Of a stretch of 26,440 nt of DNA, positions 1 through 26,440 are shown piece after piece. Position 1 is the stretch's first letter. The number at the start of each line of letters is the position of its first letter. The notes under the pieces are model-generated. The model was not told where the DNA came from. It was given only the letters and a program-made list of their open reading frames with translations, and did no database searches. The translations under genes were made by a program, and so were the position numbers. The stretch is from a virus: positions 1 to 26,440 of the IMG/VR virus record IMGVR_UViG_3300035698_001324, one strand, 5' to 3'.

Positions 1-37
1 TAAAGAACAGCAGTTCTGGTGGAAGTTAAAATCATGA
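1..37 (+). CDS. MORN-like repeat protein, C-terminal end only (partial)
   Basis: Bases 2-34 read KEQQFWWKLKS and stop at TGA 35-37. This is the same C-terminal tail (QFWWKL plus two or three residues) that closes the next gene, so a further member of the repeat-protein array starts left of the window. Its stop overlaps the next ATG as ATGA. The function is unknown. Confidence 0.75.
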   Translation, partial: KEQQFWWKLKS

Positions 38-366
38 AAACAGATGGAATGCATACCAATGGAAATGGCACCAAACATTGGTTCTTGAATGGCGAATATC
101 ATAGAACTGATGGCCCTGCTATTGAATATGCAGATGGCGACAAATATTGGTACTTGAATGGTGAATATCATCGAACAGATGGTCCTGCTATTGAAACTGC
201 ATATGGCACCAAACATTGGTTCTTGAATGGCGAACGACATCGAACAGATGGTCCTGCTATTGAATATGCAGATGGCGACAAAGGATGGTATTTGAATGGC
301 GAACAAGTGACCATGGAAGATGTTCTAACTAAAGAACAGCAGTTCTGGTGGAAGTTAAAATCATGA
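34..366 (+). CDS. MORN-like repeat protein, 3 repeats
   Basis: This 110-residue protein has a short head (MKTDGMHTNGNGTK), three 23-residue repeats of the form xWyLNGExHRTDGPAIEyADGdK, a half repeat, and a tail ending QFWWKL. The repeats resemble MORN-type (MORN_2/YwqK-like) motifs, which form small beta-hairpin units; their role in phages is not established. No signal peptide or membrane segment is visible. I chose ATG 34 rather than the in-frame GTG at 19 because the head MK/NxDGMHT is shared by all members and ATG 34 overlaps the preceding stop as ATGA. The sequence GGTGGAAG, eight or nine bases upstream, can serve as ribosome-binding site; it lies inside the codons for the preceding protein's WWK. 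Function unknown. Confidence 0.8.
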   Translation: MKTDGMHTNGNGTKHWFLNGEYHRTDGPAIEYADGDKYWYLNGEYHRTDGPAIETAYGTKHWFLNGERHRTDGPAIEYADGDKGWYLNGEQVTMEDVLTKEQQFWWKLKS

Positions 367-629
367 AAACAGATGGAATGCATACCAATGTAAATGGCAC
401 CAAATATTGGTACTTGAATGGCGAACGACATCGAACAGATGGTCCTGCTATTGAATATGCAGATGGCGACAAATATTGGTACTTGAATGGCGAATGTCAT
501 AGAGAAGATGGACCTGCTATTGAATGGACAGATGGCACCAAATCATGGTATTTGAATGGCTGTAAAGTAAACATGGAAGATGTTATCACTGATCCAAAAG
601 ATCAATTCTGGTGGAAGTTAAGATTATGA
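363..629 (+). CDS. MORN-like repeat protein, 2 repeats
   Basis: This 88-residue member of the same family has two full 23-residue repeats (with HRTDGPAIE and HREDGPAIE), a half repeat and the tail EDVITDPKDQFWWKLRL. ATG 363 overlaps the previous TGA (ATGA) and is preceded by GGTGGAAG. A longer GTG-started version from 348 is possible but would prefix residues that no other member has. Near-identical DNA with the gene before it indicates recent duplication. The function is unknown; the different repeat numbers in neighbouring copies (3, 2, 5) suggest expansion and contraction by recombination. Confidence 0.8.
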   Translation: MKTDGMHTNVNGTKYWYLNGERHRTDGPAIEYADGDKYWYLNGECHREDGPAIEWTDGTKSWYLNGCKVNMEDVITDPKDQFWWKLRL

Positions 630-1096
630 ATGTAGATGGAATGCATACCGATTCAAATGGTAACAAACAATGGTTCTTTAATGGCAAACTACATAGAGAA
701 GATGGCCCTGCTATTGAAAATGCAAATGGCAATAAACAATGGTTCTTTAATGGTGAACGACATAGAGAAGATGGCCCTGCTGTTGAATATGCAAATGGCA
801 TCAAAGAATGGTATTTAAATGGCGAACGGCATCGCGAAGATGGCCCTGCCCTATATGCAAATGGCAACAAACGATGGTTATTTAATGGTAAACGACATAG
901 AGAAGATGGCCCTGCTATTGAAAAATCAAATGGCACCAAAGTTTGGTACTTGAATGATAAACTTCATAGAACTGATGGCCCTGCCGTCGAATATGCAAAT
1001 GGCAACAAGTATTGGTACTTAAATGGCAACCTAGTAAACATGGGAGATGTTATCACTGATCCAAAAGATCAATTCTGGTGGAAGTTAATATCATGA
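626..1096 (+). CDS. MORN-like repeat protein, 5 repeats
   Basis: This is the longest member of the array, 156 residues. After MNVDGMHTDSNGNK come five repeats with the core HREDGPAIE or HRTDGPAVE, a half repeat, and the tail GDVITDPKDQFWWKLIS. The third repeat is one residue short (DGPALYANGNK). Its repeats use ANGNK where the first two genes use ADGDK, so it forms a separate subfamily with the next copy. The start overlaps the previous stop as ATGA, with GGTGGAAG upstream. The function is unknown; a binding or scaffold role would fit repeat proteins but is inference. Confidence 0.8.
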   Translation: MNVDGMHTDSNGNKQWFFNGKLHREDGPAIENANGNKQWFFNGERHREDGPAVEYANGIKEWYLNGERHREDGPALYANGNKRWLFNGKRHREDGPAIEKSNGTKVWYLNDKLHRTDGPAVEYANGNKYWYLNGNLVNMGDVITDPKDQFWWKLIS

Positions 1097-1224
1097 ATGT
1101 AGATGGAATGCATACCGATTCATATGGCGACAAATTTTGGTACTTTAATGGCGATATACATAGAGAAGATGGCCCTGCTATTGAAAATGCAAATGGCGAC
1201 AAAGAATGGTTATTCAATGGATGA
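1093..1224 (+). pseudogene. Truncated MORN-like repeat gene
   Basis: The sequence starts like the preceding gene (MNVDGMHTDSYGDK, ATGA overlap, GGTGGAAG upstream) and encodes one full repeat, then EWLFNG followed immediately by TGA. The half repeat and the QFWWKL tail present in all other copies are missing, so the 43-residue product looks like the remains of a deletion. Translation could continue in another frame into the short reading frame at 1217-1297. A functional short protein cannot be excluded. Confidence 0.6.
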
Positions 1225-1297
1225 AAAAGGTAATGTTTTCTTAGTGGAAATGGATGAATATCAATCATATTCTCTAACCGAAGTTGTGGTTCTATGA
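1217..1297 (+). CDS. Short reading frame after the truncated repeat gene
   Basis: ATG 1217 opens a 26-residue frame, MDEKGNVFLVEMDEYQSYSL plus six more residues, ending at TGA 1295-1297, which overlaps the next ATG as ATGA. This start/stop coupling matches the rest of the array and suggests the frame is, or was, translated. There is no clear ribosome-binding site, so it may be the frameshifted C-terminus of the gene at 1093 rather than an independent gene. It resembles nothing I know. Confidence 0.3.
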   Translation: MDEKGNVFLVEMDEYQSYSLTEVVVL

Positions 1298-1477
1298 CAG
1301 ATGCGGACAAGCAAAACTTTTGGGCGGCTTTGAGTCTACCTGCCGAAGATATCGGTGAATGTGAAACATTCTGGCGACGAATGTACTGACCTCTGGGTAT
1401 GGGATGGGATAAACCGTGATGTATGGGATGGGATAAACCGTGATAGATCAGTTTTGCTTGGCGAATCTATTAAATAA
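1294..1477 (+). pseudogene. KQxFW-box / WxWDG small protein, frameshifted copy
   Basis: ATG 1294 (ATGA overlap) begins MTDADKQNFWAALSLP, the N-terminal box of the small-protein family found at 8844-13284. This frame stops at 1389 after 31 residues. In the +1 frame the sequence continues GDECTDLWVWDGINRD, which is the family's usual C-terminus, and ends at TAA 1475-1477. A single frameshift around 1360-1390 therefore separates two halves of one family member. A tandem 24-bp duplication then repeats VWDGINRD. Whether a 31-residue product is made is unknown. Confidence 0.65.
1397..1444 (+). repeat. Perfect 24-bp tandem duplication
   Basis: Two identical 24-base copies (1397-1420 and 1421-1444) begin GTATGGGATGGGATAAACCG and encode VWDGINRD twice. 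Being a multiple of three, the duplication keeps frame within the broken small-protein gene. Perfect identity suggests a recent slippage event. Confidence 0.9.
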
Positions 1478-8809: not shown

Positions 8810-8838
8810 TTGACATTTTGGTATATGAATGGTATATT
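8810..8838 (+). promoter_or_regulatory. Sigma70-type promoter, TTGACA-N17-TATATT
   Basis: The -35 is TTGACA (8810-8815) and the -10 is TATATT (8833-8838). The ATG of the first small gene is at 8844, five bases after the -10, so transcription would begin at or next to the start codon. Confidence 0.8.
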
Positions 8839-8843
8839 GGTGC

Positions 8844-9047
8844 ATGGATAAAGATAAGCAAAAGTTCTGGGATAATCTACGTGAACCCATTTTTGTACAT
8901 TATGACTGTCATACCTGCATGTGGAGTAATCGTCCTGATTGTGAAGATATTGATGGGACGGGATGTATGGGTTTGGAACATCCCAGAGACAACCCTAACA
9001 ATTTGTGGGAATGGGATGGTAAAACATACGAAGATGGATATGAATAA
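8844..9047 (+). CDS. KQxFW-box / CxxC / WxWDG small protein 1
   Basis: This 67-residue protein begins MDKDKQKFWDNLREP, has CHTC and further cysteines (CED, GCMG) in the middle, and ends LWEWDGKTYEDGYE. Family pattern: [D/K]KQxFWxxL..P, CxxC, two more Cys, WxWDG. The four cysteines could bind zinc. The upstream in-frame GTG at 8829 lies within the promoter, so ATG 8844 is the likely start, giving a leaderless message. Its end overlaps the next gene by 8 bases (ATGAATAA). I recognise no characterised homologue. Confidence 0.75.
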   Translation: MDKDKQKFWDNLREPIFVHYDCHTCMWSNRPDCEDIDGTGCMGLEHPRDNPNNLWEWDGKTYEDGYE

Positions 9048-9186
9048 AGATAAGCAACAGTTTTGGGAAACGTTAACGCAACCTAATAAAAAAGGTTGTT
9101 ACAACTGGATGGATGGATATGAATAAAGATAAGCAACAGTTTTGGGAAACGTTAACGCAACCTAATAAAAAAGGTTGTTACAACTG
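9033..9186 (+). repeat. 75-bp direct repeat, offset 79 bp
   Basis: Bases 9033-9107 and 9112-9186 are identical. They cover the 3' end of one small gene and the start of the next (ATGAATAAAGATAAGC through the codons for GCYNC/W). The duplication created the short intervening reading frame 9040-9126. Confidence 0.9.
9040..9126 (+). CDS. Truncated KQxFW small protein 2 (28 residues)
   Basis: The sequence is MNKDKQQFWETLTQPNKKGC plus YNWMDGYE. The first 23 residues equal the start of the next gene, after which the frame jumps directly to the family's last residues (DGYE), so an internal deletion has removed the cysteine region. It overlaps the preceding and following genes by 8 bases each. It may be a non-functional by-product of tandem duplication that merely keeps translational coupling. 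Confidence 0.5.
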   Translation: MNKDKQQFWETLTQPNKKGCYNWMDGYE

Positions 9187-9319
9187 TGTGTTTAATAAAG
9201 ATGACGAGGATGATTGCAACAACTGGGGTAACACGGCTTGTGAACAAAACCTTGAGGATTGGAAATGGGATGGTGAAACATATGACGATGGATATGAATG
9301 GCAGCGTCCTCGAACATAA
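9119..9319 (+). CDS. KQxFW-box / CxxC / WxWDG small protein 3
   Basis: This 66-residue protein begins MNKDKQQFWETLTQPNKKGC. It has cysteines in CYNC, DDC and TAC, an acidic centre (KDDEDD), and ends with DWKWDGETYDDGYEWQRPRT. It is a good full-length family reference. An in-frame ATG at 9113 exists, but ATG 9119 matches the other members and gives the 8-base overlap with the previous stop. The four cysteines (CxxC, C, C) fit a small zinc-binding fold; function unknown. Confidence 0.75.
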   Translation: MNKDKQQFWETLTQPNKKGCYNCVFNKDDEDDCNNWGNTACEQNLEDWKWDGETYDDGYEWQRPRT

Positions 9320-9339
9320 AACATGTTCAGGATTGCGAC

Positions 9340-9469
9340 ATCAAAGATTATACCGCCGAGATTTAGGTGCTGCTGTGAAATCACCCGAGTCAACAGGAGT
9401 TTACTCATTGCGTATAATAGCAAGCAACGTCAGGTCGAGTTAGAAATGGAGATTAATCGTCGTGGATAA
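9340..9469 (+). pseudogene. Degenerate copy of the 38-residue gene
   Basis: This stretch matches bases 9722-9826 closely. It lacks one base (ACCGCCGAG for ACCGACCGAG) and carries an insertion of about 26 bases after AAATCACC, so the frame is broken. The last 57 bases (9413-9469) are identical to 9770-9826. Its former stop (TAA 9467-9469) overlaps the GTG start of the next small gene by 8 bases. Confidence 0.75.
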
Positions 9470-9692
9470 CGATAAGCAAAAGTTTTGGGATGATTTAAAA
9501 GCGCCACCCCCGTATGAGCGTAGTTGTTGGAACTGTGCGCACGGAATGCGTGAAACCGATTTAAATGGCTTCCTAGTAATGGGCGGGTGTGCTGTTACTG
9601 CATTGAGATTTTGTAAACGGAGTGTATATAACAACTATAGCTTCGGCGATAAATGGGTTTTGCTTAAAAAAGAGGTTGACAGAAACGCATAA
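9462..9692 (+). CDS. KQxFW-box / CxxC small protein 4, GTG start
   Basis: This 76-residue protein begins (GTG)DNDKQKFWDDLKAPPPYERS, with CWNC and two later cysteines (GGCAV, RFCKR). The C-terminus differs from the family: instead of WxWDG it ends FGDKWVLLKKEVDRNA. GTG 9462 is supported by ATGGAG upstream and by the N-terminal box starting immediately. The 3' end overlaps the -35 of the next promoter. The changed C-terminus suggests fusion or replacement by recombination at the repeat boundary. Confidence 0.65.
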   Translation: MDNDKQKFWDDLKAPPPYERSCWNCAHGMRETDLNGFLVMGGCAVTALRFCKRSVYNNYSFGDKWVLLKKEVDRNA

Positions 9693-9703
9693 TAATGTAT
9701 AAT
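9676..9703 (+). promoter_or_regulatory. Sigma70 consensus promoter, TTGACA-N16-TATAAT
   Basis: Both hexamers are perfect (9676-9681 and 9698-9703). ATG 9710 starts six bases after the -10, again predicting a leaderless transcript. The -35 lies within the last codons of the preceding gene. Confidence 0.85.
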
Positions 9704-9709
9704 ACTTTT

Positions 9710-9826
9710 ATGAAACACAGAATCAAAGATTATACCGACCGAGATTTAGCTGCTGCTGTGAAATCACCATATAATAGCAAGCAACGTCAGGTCGAGTTAG
9801 AAATGGAGATTAATCGTCGTGGATAA
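9710..9826 (+). CDS. 38-residue basic/charged protein
   Basis: The product is MKHRIKDYTDRDLAAAVKSP followed by YNSKQRQVELEMEINRRG. It is highly charged and predicted helical. The strong consensus promoter that ends six bases before the ATG, and the existence of a second (broken) copy at 9340-9469, argue that it is a real gene rather than chance. No Shine-Dalgarno sequence is present. The composition could suit a small nucleic-acid- or protein-binding helix, but no function can be assigned. Confidence 0.65.
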   Translation: MKHRIKDYTDRDLAAAVKSPYNSKQRQVELEMEINRRG

Positions 9827-9886
9827 AGGAAATATTATGCGTATCAAACCTTCGTGAAAAAAGTGAAGAGGGTAACTGATGGATAA
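9819..9886 (+). other. Two tiny overlapping frames (12 and 10 codons)
   Basis: GTG 9819 opens MDKGNIMRIKPS (stop 9855-9857), overlapping the 38-residue gene by 8 bases. GTG 9854 opens MKKVKRVTDG (stop 9884-9886), overlapping it by 4 bases and the next gene by 8. The chained overlaps mirror those of the neighbours. These may be remnants of deleted family members or carriers of coupled ribosomes; they may not encode useful products. Confidence 0.3.
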
Positions 9887-10076
9887 CGATAGGCAAAAGT
9901 TTTGGGATAACCTAACTATTCCACCAGATGCAAGGGACGACTGTAGATATTGTGTTAGGGAAAAAATGTTTTCGGATGCGTATGATTGCATTTTTTACAG
10001 AACATACTGCGCATCGTGTATGAATGGTATCGAAGACCATTGGGAATGGAACGGAAAGTTCAAAGTCGATGAATGA
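9879..10076 (+). CDS. KQxFW-box / CxxC / WxWDG small protein 5
   Basis: This 65-residue protein begins MDNDRQKFWDNLTIPPDARD, has CRYC, YDC and CASC in the centre, and ends HWEWNGKFKVDE, where WxWNG replaces WxWDG. GAAGAGGG lies a few bases upstream of ATG 9879, giving it a clear ribosome-binding site. It overlaps the next member by 8 bases (ATGAATGA). Five cysteines, of which CxxC and CxxC could coordinate a metal. Confidence 0.75.
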   Translation: MDNDRQKFWDNLTIPPDARDDCRYCVREKMFSDAYDCIFYRTYCASCMNGIEDHWEWNGKFKVDE

Positions 10077-10290
10077 AAAAGAAGCCTTTTGGAATGCACT
10101 GAGACAACCCGCGGTGAAAGGGTGTTGTAACTGTAAGTTTAATAAAAACGATGAAAATGATTGTATTAAATGGACCAGTATAGCTTGCGCATAAGAGAAA
10201 CCATCACATCGGTATACCCTACCCGATTGGGAATGGGATGGAGAAACATTTGTCGATGAATATGATAATATCATTGACACGATAAAATAA
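10069..10290 (+). pseudogene. KQxFW small protein 6 with in-frame TAA
   Basis: ATG 10069 begins MNEKEAFWNALRQPAVKGCC and follows the protein at 9119 closely (CNCKFNKNDENDC, SIACA), then meets TAA at 10192-10194 after 41 residues. The same frame continues EKPSHRYTLPDWEWDGETFV and ends at TAA 10288-10290, so the conserved WEWDGET C-terminus is intact and in frame beyond a single stop codon. A nonsense mutation in a recent copy is simplest; readthrough is possible. The truncated product would still keep all four cysteines. Confidence 0.65.
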
Positions 10291-10301
10291 TCTGCTATAA
10301 T
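10274..10301 (+). promoter_or_regulatory. Sigma70 consensus promoter, TTGACA-N16-TATAAT
   Basis: Perfect hexamers at 10274-10279 and 10296-10301 with a 16-base spacer. ATG 10309 lies seven bases after the -10. The in-frame ATG at 10300 overlaps the -10 itself and so cannot be in the transcript. Confidence 0.85.
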
Positions 10302-10308
10302 GCAAACT

Positions 10309-10896
10309 ATGGATATAGTAGAACAAAAACTTCGCGACCGACATCTTCAACCTGACCGCTATCATGTGTCGTGGGATGATGAAGTTGCGACTTTTCTATT
10401 GTTCAATCTATCGGGACAAATCATTGGATATCAAAACTATCGGTGGGATGCTGACAAACAGCAAGACAATGACCCGAGAATGTCCCGATATTACAAACAT
10501 GTTCCGAAAGCTTCACGTTTAGAAGTATCCACGCCTGATGATTGTACAACATATCCGTGGGTGAAACGCCGTGAAAAAATGCAGCCGTTAGCAGTTTGGG
10601 GTTTAGAGACTTATAACTACCGTAAAGACGTTTTATTTGTAGTTGAGGGGGTATTTGACGCCACAAGGCTACATCACCTCTCCTTGCCCTGCGTAGCGGC
10701 TCTCAGCAACGATCCTAAGAAGCTTCTACCTTGGTTAAAGGCTTGTGGACGCCATACAATAATGATTTGTGATGGTGATAAGGCTGGTCGTAAGTTAGCC
10801 AAGCTTGGCAATGAATCGGTGATATTGCCTGATGGAAAAGACCTTGGTGATATGACTGATGCAGAAGTCGAAAAGGTAGTAGAAAAATGGATGTAG
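10309..10896 (+). CDS. TOPRIM-domain protein (primase-related)
   Basis: This 195-residue protein has a TOPRIM signature in its second half: LFVVEGVFDATRL (around residues 110-122; catalytic-type glutamate plus glycine) and MICDGDKAGRKLA (around 151-163; DxD metal motif). The spacing is typical of TOPRIM domains of DnaG-type primases and small phage TOPRIM proteins. The N-terminal half (YHVSWDDEVATFLLFNLSG, IIGYQNYRW) resembles the region that precedes TOPRIM in phage primase-helicases. There is no helicase domain or zinc finger, so it is a stand-alone protein; synthesis of primers is plausible but unproven. ATG 10309 is chosen on promoter grounds, with a probably leaderless message. The unknown gene at 10900 follows after 3 bases. 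Confidence 0.8.
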   Translation: MDIVEQKLRDRHLQPDRYHVSWDDEVATFLLFNLSGQIIGYQNYRWDADKQQDNDPRMSRYYKHVPKASRLEVSTPDDCTTYPWVKRREKMQPLAVWGLETYNYRKDVLFVVEGVFDATRLHHLSLPCVAALSNDPKKLLPWLKACGRHTIMICDGDKAGRKLAKLGNESVILPDGKDLGDMTDAEVEKVVEKWM

Positions 10897-10899
10897 ATA

Positions 10900-11298
10900 A
10901 TGTATGAAACATATGAAAAATGCAAGTTTGCGATGGCGTTAAAAGGCAATATACCGCCCGTCTGTCTTGGGCTTGGCGAAACCAGTTTGGATTCTTCGAT
11001 GCGGAACTATTATGAACTTGGATTATCGCCGGGCGGAATGCTTACTAAACTATTATCCAATGATGTTTTTGGTGCTTGGGATAGTTGCCATCCAAATCTA
11101 AAAGGTGAGCTTGGCTTGGCTACCGACCGTATACGAGCATACATACCCCGATATTGTTATGGCGATCCAGATACAGTTCAACGATGGATTGATATGGGCG
11201 GCATCGAAGGATGGCAAGATGCTGGAAACGATTGGGAATGTCCATGGACTATGCATACCCGTGAATGGTCCAAATACTATATAGATAGACAGTTTTGA
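10900..11298 (+). CDS. Hypothetical protein downstream of TOPRIM gene
   Basis: This 132-residue protein starts MYETYEKCKFAMALKGNIPP three bases after the TOPRIM stop and is probably in the same transcript. It is rich in W, Y, G and D, with no transmembrane segment or recognisable motif. The centre reads LGLSPGGMLTKLLSNDVFGA and the end is tryptophan-rich (WECPWTMHTREWSKYYI). No clear ribosome-binding site precedes it, which fits translational coupling. I do not recognise the family. Confidence 0.6.
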   Translation: MYETYEKCKFAMALKGNIPPVCLGLGETSLDSSMRNYYELGLSPGGMLTKLLSNDVFGAWDSCHPNLKGELGLATDRIRAYIPRYCYGDPDTVQRWIDMGGIEGWQDAGNDWECPWTMHTREWSKYYIDRQF

Positions 11299-11312
11299 TT
11301 AAAAAATAGGTA

Positions 11313-11340
11313 TTGACAATGCTTTTTATTATAGTATACT
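11313..11340 (+). promoter_or_regulatory. Sigma70 promoter, TTGACA-N16-TATACT
   Basis: TTGACA at 11313-11318 and TATACT at 11335-11340. Unlike the three promoters before it, this one has an ordinary leader of about 20 bases with AAGGA before ATG 11368. Confidence 0.8.
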
Positions 11341-11367
11341 ATATACTACACAAAAGGATATATTATT

Positions 11368-12531
11368 ATGGCTAAATCAGCGTTATTAAAAACAAAAAGA
11401 AAGAACAAGGCTATCCGTTCGCCAAAGTTCGTTGATACAAAGTATCTCGGATTTGAACCGGAATGGGAAGGTGCTGATGAATGGGATGCTATTAAAATCG
11501 ATAGGCAGAAGGTTTATGGATACAACTGGTATAACTATTTCCACGATATATCCGACCTTAAAAAGAATCTTCACGACTGGATGCAACGGGAAAAGTATTC
11601 AGTTACTGATATTAAACTGGTTAAGTCTTGTCCTGATACTAAACTTAGCACAGCCACGGTCGCATTAGCCACGATGCTTATGCGTGGAATGCCCGATACT
11701 GAAAGCGACTGGTTGCGTGACCGTATTGCCACGCTTATCGAACATGGCAAAACCGTAAAGGAAGTAAAGAAAAAGGTTGAAAAGAAAAAAGGATATCAGC
11801 CAACGATTCAAGAACGTATGCGTGAACAGTTATCCAATATCATTGGTGAAATGGACGAATGGGAAGATGGCGTAAGTAACGACCTCAAGTTCGCCGCACC
11901 CGATGTCATTGGCTGGCTGAAATCTAATGAGATTGCACAAGTGCATATTGCCAAGATTGTTGAATATTACACACCAAAACTCGAAGAAATCAAATCATTG
12001 AATAGTAAGAATGTTGCCGATGATTTAAAAGAAGGATATTCACATCTAACCAAATCAGACATAACCCGCATCATCAAGTTTTATGAAAATATTATTGATG
12101 GGCTTGGTGTTTATCATAAGTTCAAACAAGTTAATCGAAAGGTTCGCACAAAGAAAGCGCCTACCGCAGCCAAACTTGTGGCAAAACTAAAATATAAGAA
12201 GGAAGATAAAGACAATAAACTTGTCAGTATCAAGCCATCCGATATCGTGGGTTCTACTGTTCTGTGGGTTTTCAATACAAAGACACGTAAGCTTGGTATT
12301 TATAAAGCTGACCCAAATGCTGGACAACTTAGCGTAAAAGGTTCAACTATTATTGGATTTGATGAAAATGTAAGTGTTGCAAAGACACTACGTAAGCCAG
12401 CAGACCAGTTAAAGGAGTTCAGCAAGGCTGGTAAAGTTAAACTTCGCACATTCCTTAGTGATATTAAGGCTGTTGAAATAAAGTTGACAGGACGCATTAA
12501 CGCCGACACTATCTTATTATCAACATATTAG
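11368..12531 (+). CDS. Hypothetical lysine-rich T4-like phage protein
   Basis: This 387-residue protein begins MAKSALLKTKRKNKAIRSPK. It is rich in K and E, with a likely coiled or helical central part (VKEVKKKVEKKKGYQPTIQE, IGEMDEWEDGV, IVEYYTPKLEEIKSLNS) and a more compact C-terminal third (IVGSTVLWVFNTKTRKLGIY, GSTIIGFDENVSVAKTLRKP). Similar hypothetical proteins occur in marine T4-like phages, often near early or replication genes; function is unknown. The strong sigma70 promoter suggests early expression. AAGGA precedes the ATG. Confidence 0.7.
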   Translation: MAKSALLKTKRKNKAIRSPKFVDTKYLGFEPEWEGADEWDAIKIDRQKVYGYNWYNYFHDISDLKKNLHDWMQREKYSVTDIKLVKSCPDTKLSTATVALATMLMRGMPDTESDWLRDRIATLIEHGKTVKEVKKKVEKKKGYQPTIQERMREQLSNIIGEMDEWEDGVSNDLKFAAPDVIGWLKSNEIAQVHIAKIVEYYTPKLEEIKSLNSKNVADDLKEGYSHLTKSDITRIIKFYENIIDGLGVYHKFKQVNRKVRTKKAPTAAKLVAKLKYKKEDKDNKLVSIKPSDIVGSTVLWVFNTKTRKLGIYKADPNAGQLSVKGSTIIGFDENVSVAKTLRKPADQLKEFSKAGKVKLRTFLSDIKAVEIKLTGRINADTILLSTY

Positions 12532-12540
12532 GATAAACAC

Positions 12541-12753
12541 ATGGATAAGCAAAAGTTTTGGGAAGCATTAGCAGCACCATCCATACAACATTGTAATAAC
12601 TGCGTTCATGGTAAACCTCACGGCGAATGGTGCAAATCCGATTTCTTTGGTACGATACTGGATTCAGTATGCGAATGTCATGCCAAACCCCGAGGGGAAA
12701 TCCATGGTTCGGAAAGAAACCACCATTGGCAATGGGATGGAAAACATGAATAA
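12541..12753 (+). CDS. KQxFW-box / CxxC / WxWDG small protein 7
   Basis: This 70-residue protein begins MDKQKFWEALAAPSIQHCNN, with cysteines at CNNC, EWC and CEC, and ends HHWQWDGKHE. It follows the 387-residue gene after nine bases, with AGGA upstream, and is probably cotranscribed. Its end overlaps the next copy by 8 bases. The central part contains several His (HGKPHGE, CHAKP), which could add metal ligands. Function unknown. Confidence 0.75.
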   Translation: MDKQKFWEALAAPSIQHCNNCVHGKPHGEWCKSDFFGTILDSVCECHAKPRGEIHGSERNHHWQWDGKHE

Positions 12754-12791
12754 GCAAAAGTTTTGGGAAGCATTAGCAGCACCATCCATAC
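12545..12791 (+). repeat. 42-bp direct repeat from gene duplication
   Basis: Bases 12545-12586 and 12750-12791 are identical and encode the KQKFWEALAAPSI box of two adjacent small genes. The 3' parts of the two genes (codons for GSERN-HWQWDG) are also nearly identical, marking a recent tandem duplication. Confidence 0.85.
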
Positions 12792-12874
12792 GTGGATGCC
12801 ATGGTGTCCGCCGTTCTGACATAGATGGTTCAGAAAGAAACCCCCATTGGCAATGGGATGGTGAAAATGACTAA
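12746..12874 (+). CDS. KQxFW small protein 8, cysteine region deleted
   Basis: This 42-residue protein begins MNKQKFWEALAAPSIRGCHG and ends HWQWDGEND. Compared with the previous copy it has lost about 28 residues, including three of the four cysteines, so the presumed metal site cannot form. It overlaps both neighbours by 8 bases. It may be a decaying copy, or the two end boxes may matter more than the cysteines. Confidence 0.6.
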   Translation: MNKQKFWEALAAPSIRGCHGVRRSDIDGSERNPHWQWDGEND

Positions 12875-13079
12875 GGAAGAGTTTTGGCAAAACCTTAAAG
12901 ACCCACTTCCATCGGATCGCATATGCGGTAACTGTAAATGGGATGAAACTTTGCATATTATCGGGAGGGATGCGGACTACAATGATCTTGACGTGTGCGA
13001 TAGATGCACTAGATTTATAGTGATGATTAATCAGGAAGATTGCTATAATAGATGGGAATGGGATGGTGAAAATGACTAA
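12867..13079 (+). CDS. KQxFW-type / CxxC / WxWDG small protein 9
   Basis: This 70-residue protein begins MTKEEFWQNLKDPLPSDRIC, with CGNC, CDRC and a fifth cysteine, and ends RWEWDGEND. The box is KEEFWxxL rather than KQxFW. It is one of the best preserved full-length copies, with two CxxC pairs that suit zinc coordination. It overlaps the preceding and following genes by 8 bases (ATGACTAA). Function unknown. Confidence 0.75.
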   Translation: MTKEEFWQNLKDPLPSDRICGNCKWDETLHIIGRDADYNDLDVCDRCTRFIVMINQEDCYNRWEWDGEND

Positions 13080-13284
13080 GGAAGAGTTTTGGGATGATCT
13101 TCAATACGATCCTAACTTTGAACCCACAGAAGTAATAATGGATATTATGAAAACCCTTATTGAATAGGGGGTTACTGATTTATATCCTGCCGTGTATGCT
13201 GAAGTTGATAAACTTCCACAATGGCAATGGGACATTATTGGTGATTGTTTAGTGATGTATACGGAAACCAATGAACCTCTATGA
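13072..13284 (+). pseudogene. KQxFW-type small protein 10 with in-frame TAG
   Basis: ATG 13072 begins MTKEEFWDDLQYDPNFEPTE, identical at the start to the previous gene, and stops at TAG 13165-13167 after 31 residues. The same frame continues GVTDLYPAVYAEVDKLPQWQ, then WDIIGDC, and ends at TGA 13282-13284, exactly 70 codons in all like its neighbour. The family's tryptophan motif (PQWQWD) is therefore kept in frame behind an amber codon. The CxxC pair is absent. The stop abuts the convergent stop of the gp13 gene. Confidence 0.6.
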
Positions 13285-14043
13285 TTAACCTTGAATCCAC
13301 GCTAATGGAGTATTTCCTACTTCAAACTGTTTAATAGATTCCATGCATTCGTCAATAAGTGCCTGACCTTCAGCCTTCAACGCATCACCGTTGAGGGTTG
13401 TTCCGCCACCGGGTCCAACAACTGTTGAAAACTTAGACCGTGCTTCGCCAAGCATCATTTTACATACACCTAATGAATACTGTTCAAGCCAAGGCAAGCA
13501 TTCTTTATCTTGTAATAAAGTATCATCGGGTTTACGGTTATAAAGCCATAGCAAAATAGATTCACCAGACCCTTTGATATTACGCACAAGTGTAAGTTTC
13601 TTTGATACGGGTTCCCACGTAAAGTTGATATACCCACCAAACATTCTTGCGGCTAGTTCTTGATATTGATTAAATAGTTCGTATGTAGCAAGACCGCCAA
13701 GGCGACCCGCTTGTAAAAGATATGTATTAACGAAAGCGGCTTCAAATGGTTCAAACTGCGTTGCTTGACCAGCTGCACCAGAACCGATACCACGACGAAA
13801 TACTTGACGAACTTCCATAATGTTATCATCAAGAATGTATTCCTGCTGACCTCGAACCAAGTCGAGAAATCCATAACTTTCTTCCATGGCGTTATCTGTG
13901 CGTTGACGAAATACACGTAAGGCACGATCCAACGCCATATCGATGTGGGCGGCGTCAAGTTCAACCGTGACCATTCCTGAACCTAACGACAGCATTATGT
14001 AATCAGCTACATTATTTCTTAGTGTTGATAAATCAGTTGGCAT
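13285..14043 (-). CDS. Neck protein, gp13-like
   Basis: This 252-residue protein contains TVELDAAHIDMALDRALRVF near the N-terminus, then QQEYILDDNIMEVRQVFRRG, LLQAGRLGGLATYELFNQYQ, FTWEPVSKKLTLVRNI, SILLWLYNRKPDD and SKFSTVVGPGGGTTLNGDAL, ending GNTPLAWIQG. This order is characteristic of gp13 head-completion/neck proteins of T4-like marine phages; gp13 and gp14 join the filled head to the tail. AAGGA lies upstream of ATG 14043, and a late motif before that. It lies on the minus strand apart from gp14 and gp15, with the small-gene island between. Confidence 0.75.
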   Translation of the reverse strand: MPTDLSTLRNNVADYIMLSLGSGMVTVELDAAHIDMALDRALRVFRQRTDNAMEESYGFLDLVRGQQEYILDDNIMEVRQVFRRGIGSGAAGQATQFEPFEAAFVNTYLLQAGRLGGLATYELFNQYQELAARMFGGYINFTWEPVSKKLTLVRNIKGSGESILLWLYNRKPDDTLLQDKECLPWLEQYSLGVCKMMLGEARSKFSTVVGPGGGTTLNGDALKAEGQALIDECMESIKQFEVGNTPLAWIQG

Positions 14044-14061
14044 AGTTCACGTCCTTTATAC

Positions 14062-14069
14062 TATTTATG
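14062..14069 (-). promoter_or_regulatory. Late promoter motif CATAAATA (minus)
   Basis: The minus strand reads GCATAAATAGTATAAAGGACG ahead of the gp13-like ATG, so a late core is followed by an AAGGA ribosome-binding site. Confidence 0.55.
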
Positions 14070-14118
14070 CTTACAGTTGGTATTGTGCCATCTTCCGAGG
14101 TTTGATATAGTTTTTATA

Positions 14119-14148
14119 TTGAAAGTTGCACAAACAATAAGGTATAAT
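14119..14148 (+). promoter_or_regulatory. Sigma70-type promoter, TTGAAA-N18-TATAAT
   Basis: TTGAAA at 14119-14124 and TATAAT at 14143-14148. The transcript would start near 14155 and have a leader of about 40 bases that contains the palindrome at 14166-14185. Confidence 0.65.
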
Positions 14149-14165
14149 ATTACTATACATTAAAA

Positions 14166-14185
14166 ACAAGTAAATATTTACTTGT
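14166..14185 (+). promoter_or_regulatory. 20-bp perfect palindrome in the kinase leader
   Basis: ACAAGTAAATATTTACTTGT reads the same on both strands. It lies downstream of the presumed start of transcription and just before the GGAAAGG ribosome-binding site, so it could be an operator for a dimeric regulator or an RNA hairpin acting on translation. Confidence 0.5.
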
Positions 14186-14197
14186 GGAAAGGAAACG

Positions 14198-14932
14198 ATG
14201 ACAGTGATTTTAGGGATTTGCGGATTTAAAGGCAGTGGCAAAGATACAGTCGCTGACCATTTAGTAGAACATCACGGATTTACCAAAATCAGTTTTGCTG
14301 ATAAACTTAAAGATGCGTGTGCCACTATTTTTGAGTGGGATCGTGATATGCTTGAAGGTTCAACTGCCGAAAGTCGTGAATGGCGAGAAGAGGTTGATGA
14401 ATGGTGGGCAAATCGGCTTGAAGTAGAAAACTTTTCACCTAGACTTGCGCTACAGTGGATGGGTACTGAAGCAGGACGCAATGTATTCGGACAGAATATT
14501 TGGTGTGCAGCAATGGAAAAGTTTATATTAGAAAATCCCGATAACTATGTTATTCCTGACGTTCGATTCCGAAATGAAGTCAAAATGATTCACAATATGC
14601 GTGGTAAGATTATGCGAGTAAAGCGTGGTCCTGAACCTGATTGGTTTAATGACGTAAAGGCTTGGAATAAAGTTGAAAAAGATGGGTCGATGCCAAACGC
14701 TATTCCGCCCAGTGTCATTAGTAATATTCATCCAAGTGAACGAGAATGGATTGGTGAAAAAATGGATATTCATCTTGAAAATGATTCCACTATTGAACGA
14801 CTATGTGAAGTAACCGAAGTTATCCTTGGGTTGGTCGAAGTCGCTGGAGTTCCAGAAGACCTTACAAGTCAATCCGAAGATCACCTTGACGCCACCCTTG
14901 CGGATCAAGACTTAACTCAATCTGACAGTTAG
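14198..14932 (+). CDS. Deoxynucleoside monophosphate kinase (T4 gp1-like)
   Basis: This 244-residue protein, close in length to T4 gp1 (241), starts MTVILGICGFKGSGKDTVAD. The P-loop is GFKGSGKDT at residues 9-17. It is followed by FADKLKDACATIF and LQWMGTEAGRNVFGQNIWCA, and by VIPDVRFRNEVKMI, the Asp-Val-Arg-Phe motif of the dNMP kinase family. The enzyme phosphorylates dNMPs from host DNA breakdown and de novo synthesis to dNDPs for phage DNA. The last ~25 residues (EDLTSQSEDHLDATLADQDL) are an acidic tail not needed for the fold, encoded antisense to the next gene. GGAAAGG precedes the ATG. Sigma70 control suggests early expression. Confidence 0.85.
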   Translation: MTVILGICGFKGSGKDTVADHLVEHHGFTKISFADKLKDACATIFEWDRDMLEGSTAESREWREEVDEWWANRLEVENFSPRLALQWMGTEAGRNVFGQNIWCAAMEKFILENPDNYVIPDVRFRNEVKMIHNMRGKIMRVKRGPEPDWFNDVKAWNKVEKDGSMPNAIPPSVISNIHPSEREWIGEKMDIHLENDSTIERLCEVTEVILGLVEVAGVPEDLTSQSEDHLDATLADQDLTQSDS

Positions 14933-25347: not shown

Positions 25348-26274
25348 ATGTCAGAAGAACTAGTTAAAAAACCAAATATGAAAATGGTATATACACGTGA
25401 GCAAATGATAGAGTTTGCAAAATGTGCTGATCCGATAACTGGTCATAAATATTTTCTGGAAAATTATTTCTATATTCAGCACCCTACCAAGGGTCAACTT
25501 AAATATTCACCGTTCGAGTTTCAAGAAAGACTGGTGGATACATATCACCACAATCGTTTTGCCATTGCGCTTATGCCACGACAGACGGGAAAATCGACAA
25601 CAGCAGCGGGATACCTATTATGGTTTGCTATGTTCAAGCCTGATAGTATTATTCTTGTAGCAGCACATAAACAATCAGGTGCAGCTGAGATTATGCAACG
25701 TGTGCGATACGCTTACGAACTATGTCCCGATTTCATTAGATGCGGCGCAACTACATATAACAAAAACTCATTGGAGTTTGATAACGGTTCAAGATTGGTG
25801 GCACAAGCTACGACAGAAAACACGGGTCGTGGTATGTCAATCACGTTATTATATCTAGACGAATTTGCATTCGTTCGTAATACAATCGCCAGTGAATTCT
25901 GGACTTCAATGCGTCCTACGTTAGCAACAGGTGGTAAATGTATTATCACATCAACGCCAAACTCCGATGAAGATCAGTTTGCCCTAGAATGGAAAATGGC
26001 AAACAAAACTGTAGATGATTTTGGAAATGATACGGGTATTGGAACGAATGGATTTAAAGCATTCAGATCATTCTGGCACGAACATCCAGACCGTGACCAA
26101 AAATGGGCAGACGACGAAGAACAGGCTATTGGTACTGAAAAATTCAGGCGGGAACACTGTTGCGTGGTACACTCTTCTTTGATAACTATTCAAGATGAAA
26201 ATGGTGCCACTAGTATTGTTGATATAGGAACACTGTATAAAAAATTTAGAGATGATGATTTCCTTGATAAATAA
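25348..26274 (+). CDS. Terminase large subunit, N-terminal part fused to split-intein fragment
   Basis: Residues 1-271 form the packaging ATPase: Walker A MPRQTGKST (76-84), Walker B LLYLDEFAF (167-175, D171/E172) and the coupling motif TSTP (201-204), with the Q-like FEFQERL upstream. T4 gp17 has about 610 residues; here the ATPase ends at GTEKFRREHC, just where the RNase H-fold nuclease domain should begin, and C272 starts an intein-like sequence that runs 37 residues to TAA 26272-26274. A functional terminase would therefore need trans-splicing to a C-terminal half encoded outside the window. AGGGAG precedes the ATG. The ATPase translocates DNA into the prohead. Confidence 0.9.
   Translation: MSEELVKKPNMKMVYTREQMIEFAKCADPITGHKYFLENYFYIQHPTKGQLKYSPFEFQERLVDTYHHNRFAIALMPRQTGKSTTAAGYLLWFAMFKPDSIILVAAHKQSGAAEIMQRVRYAYELCPDFIRCGATTYNKNSLEFDNGSRLVAQATTENTGRGMSITLLYLDEFAFVRNTIASEFWTSMRPTLATGGKCIITSTPNSDEDQFALEWKMANKTVDDFGNDTGIGTNGFKAFRSFWHEHPDRDQKWADDEEQAIGTEKFRREHCCVVHSSLITIQDENGATSIVDIGTLYKKFRDDDFLDK
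26161..26271 (+). other. N-terminal split-intein fragment (37 residues)
   Basis: The segment begins CVVHSSLITIQDENG and continues through SIVDIGTLYKKF to LDK. It fits intein block A (CxxxDT/SxLITIxD) followed by the I-x-x-LYK element, with Cys1 as the splicing nucleophile. The AceL-TerL atypical split intein, also found in a terminase, has a similarly short N-fragment (25 residues, beginning CVYGDT and ending around LYKRLA as I recall). An ordinary split intein has an N-fragment of about 90-100 residues. Blocks B, F and G are not in this frame and must be supplied in trans. Confidence 0.8.
26266..26274 (+). promoter_or_regulatory. Late-like motif GATAAATAA
   Basis: The motif overlaps the stop of the terminase N-part and lies 28 bases before ATG 26303, so the inserted gene may have its own late transcript. 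Confidence 0.4.
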
Positions 26275-26302
26275 GTATGAAACGATTTCAAGGAGAATAT
26301 AA

Positions 26303-26440
26303 ATGAGTGCTACATACGAAACATCAAAAATTGACAATGAAAAATATTGTAAATCAAATGGGCAATTCACGAAACATCTTAAACAACATAGTTATACATA
26401 TCAGTCCTATTATGAAGAATACATCACGGGTATTTCTCCA
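26303..26440 (+). CDS. Probable homing endonuclease, N-terminal part (runs off window)
   Basis: 46 codons are visible: MSATYETSKIDNEKYCKSNG, then QFTKHLKQHSYTYQSYYEEY and ITGISP. The pattern C..NG.FT.HL......TY.-YYE.Y resembles the N-terminus of free-standing phage homing endonucleases, where a small zinc-finger-like region precedes the nuclease. AAGGAGA lies six bases before the ATG. Its place directly after a split-intein N-fragment matches the 'fractured gene' arrangement (Dassa and co-workers), in which an endonuclease gene separates two intein halves. It does not encode the intein C-fragment in the visible part. The assignment rests mainly on context. Confidence 0.55.
   Translation, partial: MSATYETSKIDNEKYCKSNGQFTKHLKQHSYTYQSYYEEYITGISP

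Follow-up and report, generated by a model that had tools for sequence, protein, structure and literature searches.

Small proteins built around a short FW box have multiplied in a single lineage of jumbo phages. The box is maintained by selection on the protein, the copies have exchanged their cores at its edge, and the same box is found on other, unrelated proteins of the phage. The family was examined in a stretch of 26,440 nucleotides from the IMG/VR virus record IMGVR_UViG_3300035698_001324 (the window) and in two long contigs of the same or a very similar phage.

The FW-box family in the window

By a six-frame scan together with a profile, ten boxed copies were located on the + strand at 8844-13167, plus one at 1294, which bears out the original prediction of an eleven-member family. 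The pattern does not occur at all in the reversed window. A complete copy is taken here as one with the box, CxxC, at least four cysteines and WxW[DN]G. The cluster had been predicted to run to 13284 and to hold, with the outlying copy, seven intact members; the cluster itself stands, but it ends at about 13167, and five copies (8844, 9113, 9879, 12541 and 12867) are complete. Adjacent copies often share a few bases, each beginning inside the end of the one before it.

Box starts, + strand: 8844, 9034, 9113, 9462, 9879, 10069, 12541, 12746, 12867, 13072; also 1294
1294..1389, + strand: copy 11, broken, frame lost after the box; WVWDG remnant at 1394, in a different frame
8810..8838, + strand: sigma70-type promoter TTGACA-17-TATATT, 11/12, before the first cluster
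8844..9047, + strand: copy 1, complete, 67 aa, profile E 1e-16
9034..9126, + strand: copy 2, 30-aa partial unit, remnant of a 79-bp tandem duplication
9113..9319, + strand: copy 3, complete, 68 aa, profile E 1e-13
9462..9692, + strand: copy 4, 76 aa, GTG start, box and four Cys, lacks WxWDG
9879..10076, + strand: copy 5, complete, 65 aa, WEWNG, profile E 4e-17
10069..10290, + strand: copy 6, a single in-frame TAA at 10192, WEWDG tail downstream at 10228
11313..11340, + strand: sigma70-type promoter TTGACA-16-TATACT, 11/12, ahead of the gene at 11368, which heads the second cluster
12541..12753, + strand: copy 7, complete, 70 aa, profile E 4e-18
12746..12874, + strand: copy 8, short form, 42 aa, one Cys, box and WQWDG, lacks CxxC
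12867..13079, + strand: copy 9, complete, 70 aa
13072..13167, + strand: copy 10, frame lost after the box; tail remnant WQWD near 13222

The centre of copy 9 is nearly identical to that of a copy on the 230-kb contig described below. An exact 57-nt repeat (9413-9469 and 9770-9826; peptide YNSKQRQVELEMEINRRG) lies ahead of copies 9462 and 9879.

An alignment of 44 members gives the consensus MxxDKExFWxxLxxP, followed by CxNC, two more spaced cysteines and then WEWxG. The F of the box and cysteines 1, 3 and 4 are invariant. The alignment thus has the four invariant or near-invariant cysteines looked for in a zinc protein, while single copies may miss one or more of them.

The family resembles no catalogued group, in keeping with the earlier statement that no described function was known for it. 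In Pfam, PHROG, NCBIfam and PADLOC, at most two of the 44 members match any one family, the hits being scattered (best E 0.0044), and a profile search of the PDB returned weak ALKAL matches only (E 0.034 and worse), which were judged not credible. Searching 50,697 phage records with two tblastn queries gave nothing above noise. One DNA pattern run over a collection of genomes from 84,980 species gave 28 loci, none of them convincing by profile; the best is a 29-aa ORF at E 3.5e-6. Absence in such pattern scans is weak evidence, since they detect only copies with one exact spacing. A locus from the first pattern scan (L025) was discarded as a chance match. The literature search, with subscription journals mostly outside its coverage, yielded no paper recognised as describing a cysteine family with an FW box.

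With regard to the timing of expression, the + strand between 8741 and 11400 contains four sigma70-type sites scoring at least 11/12, against a null mean of 0.09 and a maximum of 1 in 400 simulations. At the laxer threshold of at least 9/12 there is no enrichment (23 sites against 21.5 in shuffles). Strong sites on the + strand of the 230-kb contig number 46, compared with 4-7 in simulated sequence; of 65 such sites on the two long contigs, only four lie no more than 200 nt upstream of a copy. The late-type element [TC]ATAAATA precedes several structural genes but only one of 60 copies. Strong sigma70-type promoters ahead of both window clusters, together with this near absence of late-type ones, make it likely that the family is expressed early, as had been predicted.

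Two other ORFs lie among the copies. The one at 10300-10896 is primase-like, its best match being one part of the phrog_849 DNA primase profile (positions 224-337 of 435), and is possibly a truncated primase; it is preceded by a 12/12 sigma70-type promoter. The other, at 11368-12531, heads the second cluster and encodes a phrog_11903 protein (E 3e-66) with relatives in 25 phage records.

The phage and the spread of the family

The window comes from a jumbo phage whose nearest named relatives, judged by terminase (58.6% identity), are Pseudomonas phage PA5oct and its kin. The sample is probably from Ace Lake in Antarctica: the available text of PMC9716671 assigns neighbouring IMG numbers to that lake, although it does not show the exact ones. 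The large terminase frame at 25348-26440 seems, by eye, to enter an intein near 26170. A contig of 77,972 bp is identical to window positions 4033-26440 (100% identity). When 200 PA5oct ORFs were searched against this 78-kb contig, a second contig of 230,059 bp and the window start, 73 had a match: 38 on the 230-kb contig only, 29 only on the 78-kb contig or the window start, and six on both, five of these six matching repeatedly at a single pair of loci. The gene type at those loci (78-kb contig, 13523-14764; 230-kb contig, 206854-208323) matches five separate PA5oct ORFs and is a repeated gene family. Gene order relative to PA5oct is largely kept. The two contigs and the window start would then be complementary parts of one phage genome of about 312 kb, the assembly probably having broken at MORN-like repeats; alternatively, they may come from two very similar phages that co-occur.

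Outside the window the profile recovers dozens of further copies. At E<=1e-3 the iterated profile finds 53 domains, of which the 230-kb contig holds 39 and the 78-kb contig 14. Boxed copies in the inferred genome number 60 at E<=0.1 and 52 at E<=1e-3, a count that presumes the joining of the complementary contigs; it covers both contigs and the window start, counts the part of the window repeating the 78-kb contig once, and omits profile matches with neither an FW nor an FI box (one row, G5 8038). Of the 60 copies, 32 are complete and 28 incomplete. At 139-152 kb of the 230-kb contig (L032, L033), the copies are interspersed with ORFs that by eye are glycosyltransferase-like and radical-SAM-like.

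In related phages the family is sparse. Three other contigs of the PA5oct group, preselected for holding a match, carry one, one and two copies. A profile search of six isolates (PA5oct, Atu_ph07, Phosso, Ochrobactrum phage OC, Celeribacter P12053L and Vibrio 2.275.O) found the family in none of them. The profiles matched 9/9 and 4/4 records preselected for holding the family, figures that are positive controls and not frequencies. With 52 copies here against one or two in its kin and none in the isolates, a rare small gene has expanded in a single lineage.

Selection, recombination and the box on other proteins

Purifying selection acts on the K-x-x-F-W-x-x-L box at the protein level. Over 56 boxes, pN/pS was 0.04/1.25 at K, 0/0.67 at F and 0.09/0.97 at L, and at the unconserved columns of the box pN was close to pS. 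Thus the measured substitution rates agree with the predicted conservation of the boxes. The codons for K, P, C and G vary across copies, and conservation at the DNA level only was therefore dropped as an explanation. A bias is seen at two residues, F being TTT in 50 of 57 boxes and the N of CxNC being AAC in 29 of 32, which is taken as a sign of recent spread or shared ancestry.

The remainder of the protein is constrained as well. In four pairs chosen as alignable, dN/dS was 0.17-0.38 for the whole ORF and 0.12-0.57 for the centre where it could be computed, values obtained by a crude method from few sites with saturated dS. These values indicate purifying selection, and positive selection was dropped. 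The fast divergence between the boxes that had been predicted is, on this evidence, not adaptive in that sense; much of it reflects mosaic recombination.

Copy pairs are indeed mosaic, with cores swapped at the conserved box end. In the pair 33913/151625 the box region has no synonymous changes in 8 sites, against 15.2 in 20.7 in the centre. In the pair G1_68929/G5_151016 the situation is reversed, with 7.0 in 9.8 in the box region and 6.2 in 22.8 in the centre, so that here the centre is the younger part. In a syntenic operon, the genes of a related contig enclose one copy, and at the corresponding place the present phage has copies at 31415, 32348, 33176, 33913 and 34136. Loss is visible in a comparison of three contigs from close strains (about 97-99% identity), one of which lacks exactly one 197-bp unit, the junction falling within an identical box start. 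Other indels between close strains, mostly frameshifting, also fall inside copies, and in a 4,977-bp aligned block between strains the sole gap sits in a copy; the contigs being metagenomic, single indels may be assembly errors. The comparisons indicate that copies spread via tandem duplication and box-centred recombination, and that they often decay.

The box is not confined to the cysteine family. Its pattern occurs 92 times across both contigs and the window start: 48 times in the family, 16 times at the C-termini of MORN-like proteins, 23 times near the start of other ORFs and five times elsewhere. The control counts were four and zero in the reversed contigs and three in forward PA5oct (287 kb). 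Tandem MORN-like NGxxHRxDGPA repeat proteins occupy window positions 19-1224, and 26 such units are present on the 230-kb contig. Three of the boxes lie in this part of the window:

334..357, + strand: box EQQFWWKL at the C-terminus of a MORN-like protein
597..620, + strand: box KDQFWWKL at the C-terminus of a MORN-like protein
1064..1087, + strand: box KDQFWWKL at the C-terminus of a MORN-like protein

Among the 16 MORN-like segments, 14 end in FWxx[LMI]; of the two exceptions, one was judged a false MORN call and the other has a different end. These proteins have the FWxxL box in common with the cysteine family, but carry it C-terminally and are otherwise unrelated repeat proteins. No NGxxHRxDGPA units were found in PA5oct and three related contigs, and the MORN-like proteins of Celeribacter phage P12053L and Agrobacterium phage Atu_ph07 (one read from each) have no box. 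As for the 23 start-proximal boxes, several are family fragments or chance occurrences and, on reading, about a dozen are open small ORFs that have no cysteine core; one related contig likewise has boxed ORFs lacking cysteines. Some of these cysteine-free ORFs may be decayed copies and not independent users of the box.

Possible roles and comparison with known systems

The reading preferred here, held tentatively and at somewhat less than even confidence, is that the members are early-expressed small adaptors with one shared docking helix, variable cores held by cysteines and a conserved tail. The N-terminal amphipathic helix K-x-x-F-W-x-x-L-x-x-P would dock on one common partner, a hub of either the host or the phage. 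The four-cysteine core, probably with one zinc, would present loops that differ between copies, and the W-x-W-[DN]-G tail would be the third part. Different cores would bring different targets, those of the host possibly among them, to the same hub. Copies would arise through tandem duplication and recombination at the conserved ends, exchanging cores between constant ends, and would disappear when a unit is deleted or its frame shifts. The best hint of a docking function is the presence of the box on otherwise unrelated proteins, and for this reason the common docking motif of the original prediction is favoured. Two AlphaFold2 models, both weak (mean pLDDT 65.8 and 65.4), have nothing in common but a helix spanning the box (residues 3-13 and 2-12), so that the core fold and the zinc stay putative. 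Against the adaptors stand the 28 incomplete copies of 60, which are also compatible with a near-neutral expansion, and the small share of sigma70-type sites (4 of 65) close upstream of a copy.

A broader proposal, possible but less probable, is that the FW box serves as an address tag throughout the phage. A single hub, of host or phage origin, would then read the same helix on about 80 small proteins, covering the cysteine family, the MORN-like repeats and others, and recombination at the tag would yield new combinations of cargo.

The members could also be zinc-dependent regulators that bind nucleic acids, each copy having its own DNA or RNA site and the helix serving for dimerisation or polymerase contact. 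The four-cysteine core and the early-type promoters would suit such a role, and there is a precedent: for the roughly 35 zinc-ribbon copies of Bacillus phage G, the available text of Iyer et al. 2021 (PMC7824862) suggests roles as transcription factors or structural proteins. The phage G expansion is likewise specific to its lineage and made of small proteins of the four-cysteine type in a jumbo phage. Unlike the present family, it shows no FW box, and its copies lie mostly in one long array (about 352-371 kb) with others scattered, whereas here there are many small clusters. When 36 of its members were re-found in the first 400 kb of phage G, reciprocal profile searches with the family of gp32 (YP_009015343.1) over that region gave E>0.6 only, and the whole phage G record contained no match at E<=10. 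This lack of homology, and the same box at MORN-like C-termini, which a regulator would leave unexplained, make the regulatory role unlikely.

Two further explanations are each a little less likely still. The first likens the members to the internal proteins of T4: the box would direct them to the capsid without being cleaved off, and the variable part would enter the cell with the injected DNA and block host defences. By analogy with T4, a conserved L/I-x-E cleavage motif would be expected after the N-terminal signal. The design is the same in that IPI-IPIII are small, variable between phages, and composed of a short constant N-terminus and a divergent remainder; according to the available part of the source, only about 10 N-terminal residues are needed for targeting in T4, and IPI inhibits a restriction enzyme (PMC9026906). 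The FW box, however, has no conserved cleavage motif (L-x-E in just 11 of 57 boxes), the cysteine core is conserved here, and the box is C-terminal on the MORN-like proteins. Other proteins of the phage begin, by eye, with more T4-like M[KR]...FLxE leaders, and the single late-type promoter among 60 copies also speaks against packaging into the virion.

The second is a near-neutral family of microgenes, in which short tandem repeats recombine and copies multiply while most of them do little. It would account for the many incomplete copies (28 of 60), for the unit loss and frameshifts among close strains and for the exact short tandem duplication, but not for purifying selection at the protein level on the box and on whole ORFs, nor for the retention of one or two copies by related contigs. 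Lastly, RiPP-like peptide precursors, with a constant leader and a variable cysteine core modified by phage enzymes, are very improbable: the constant N-terminus, the variable centre and several ORFs that by eye are radical-SAM-like (140-148 kb of the 230-kb contig) fit them, but the cysteine positions and the C-terminal tail are conserved, and no radical-SAM-like neighbour was seen by eye at the window clusters or at copies in other phages.

The theme of paralog expansion in jumbo phages is known. For phages G and 121Q, the available text of Hua et al. 2017 (PMC5646251) describes arrays with over 30 similar genes, and so does that of a 2026 review; the 121Q array, likened here by description only, is likewise one gene family expanded in a jumbo phage. 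Such expansions, of at least 30 small genes, have been reported yet not explained. The present family provides a clear case of phage gene copies exchanging cores at a conserved end, with intermediates visible among close strains. The shared box is a new and testable clue: as its eight residues are kept on proteins that share nothing else, the function can be tested through a single partner of the box.
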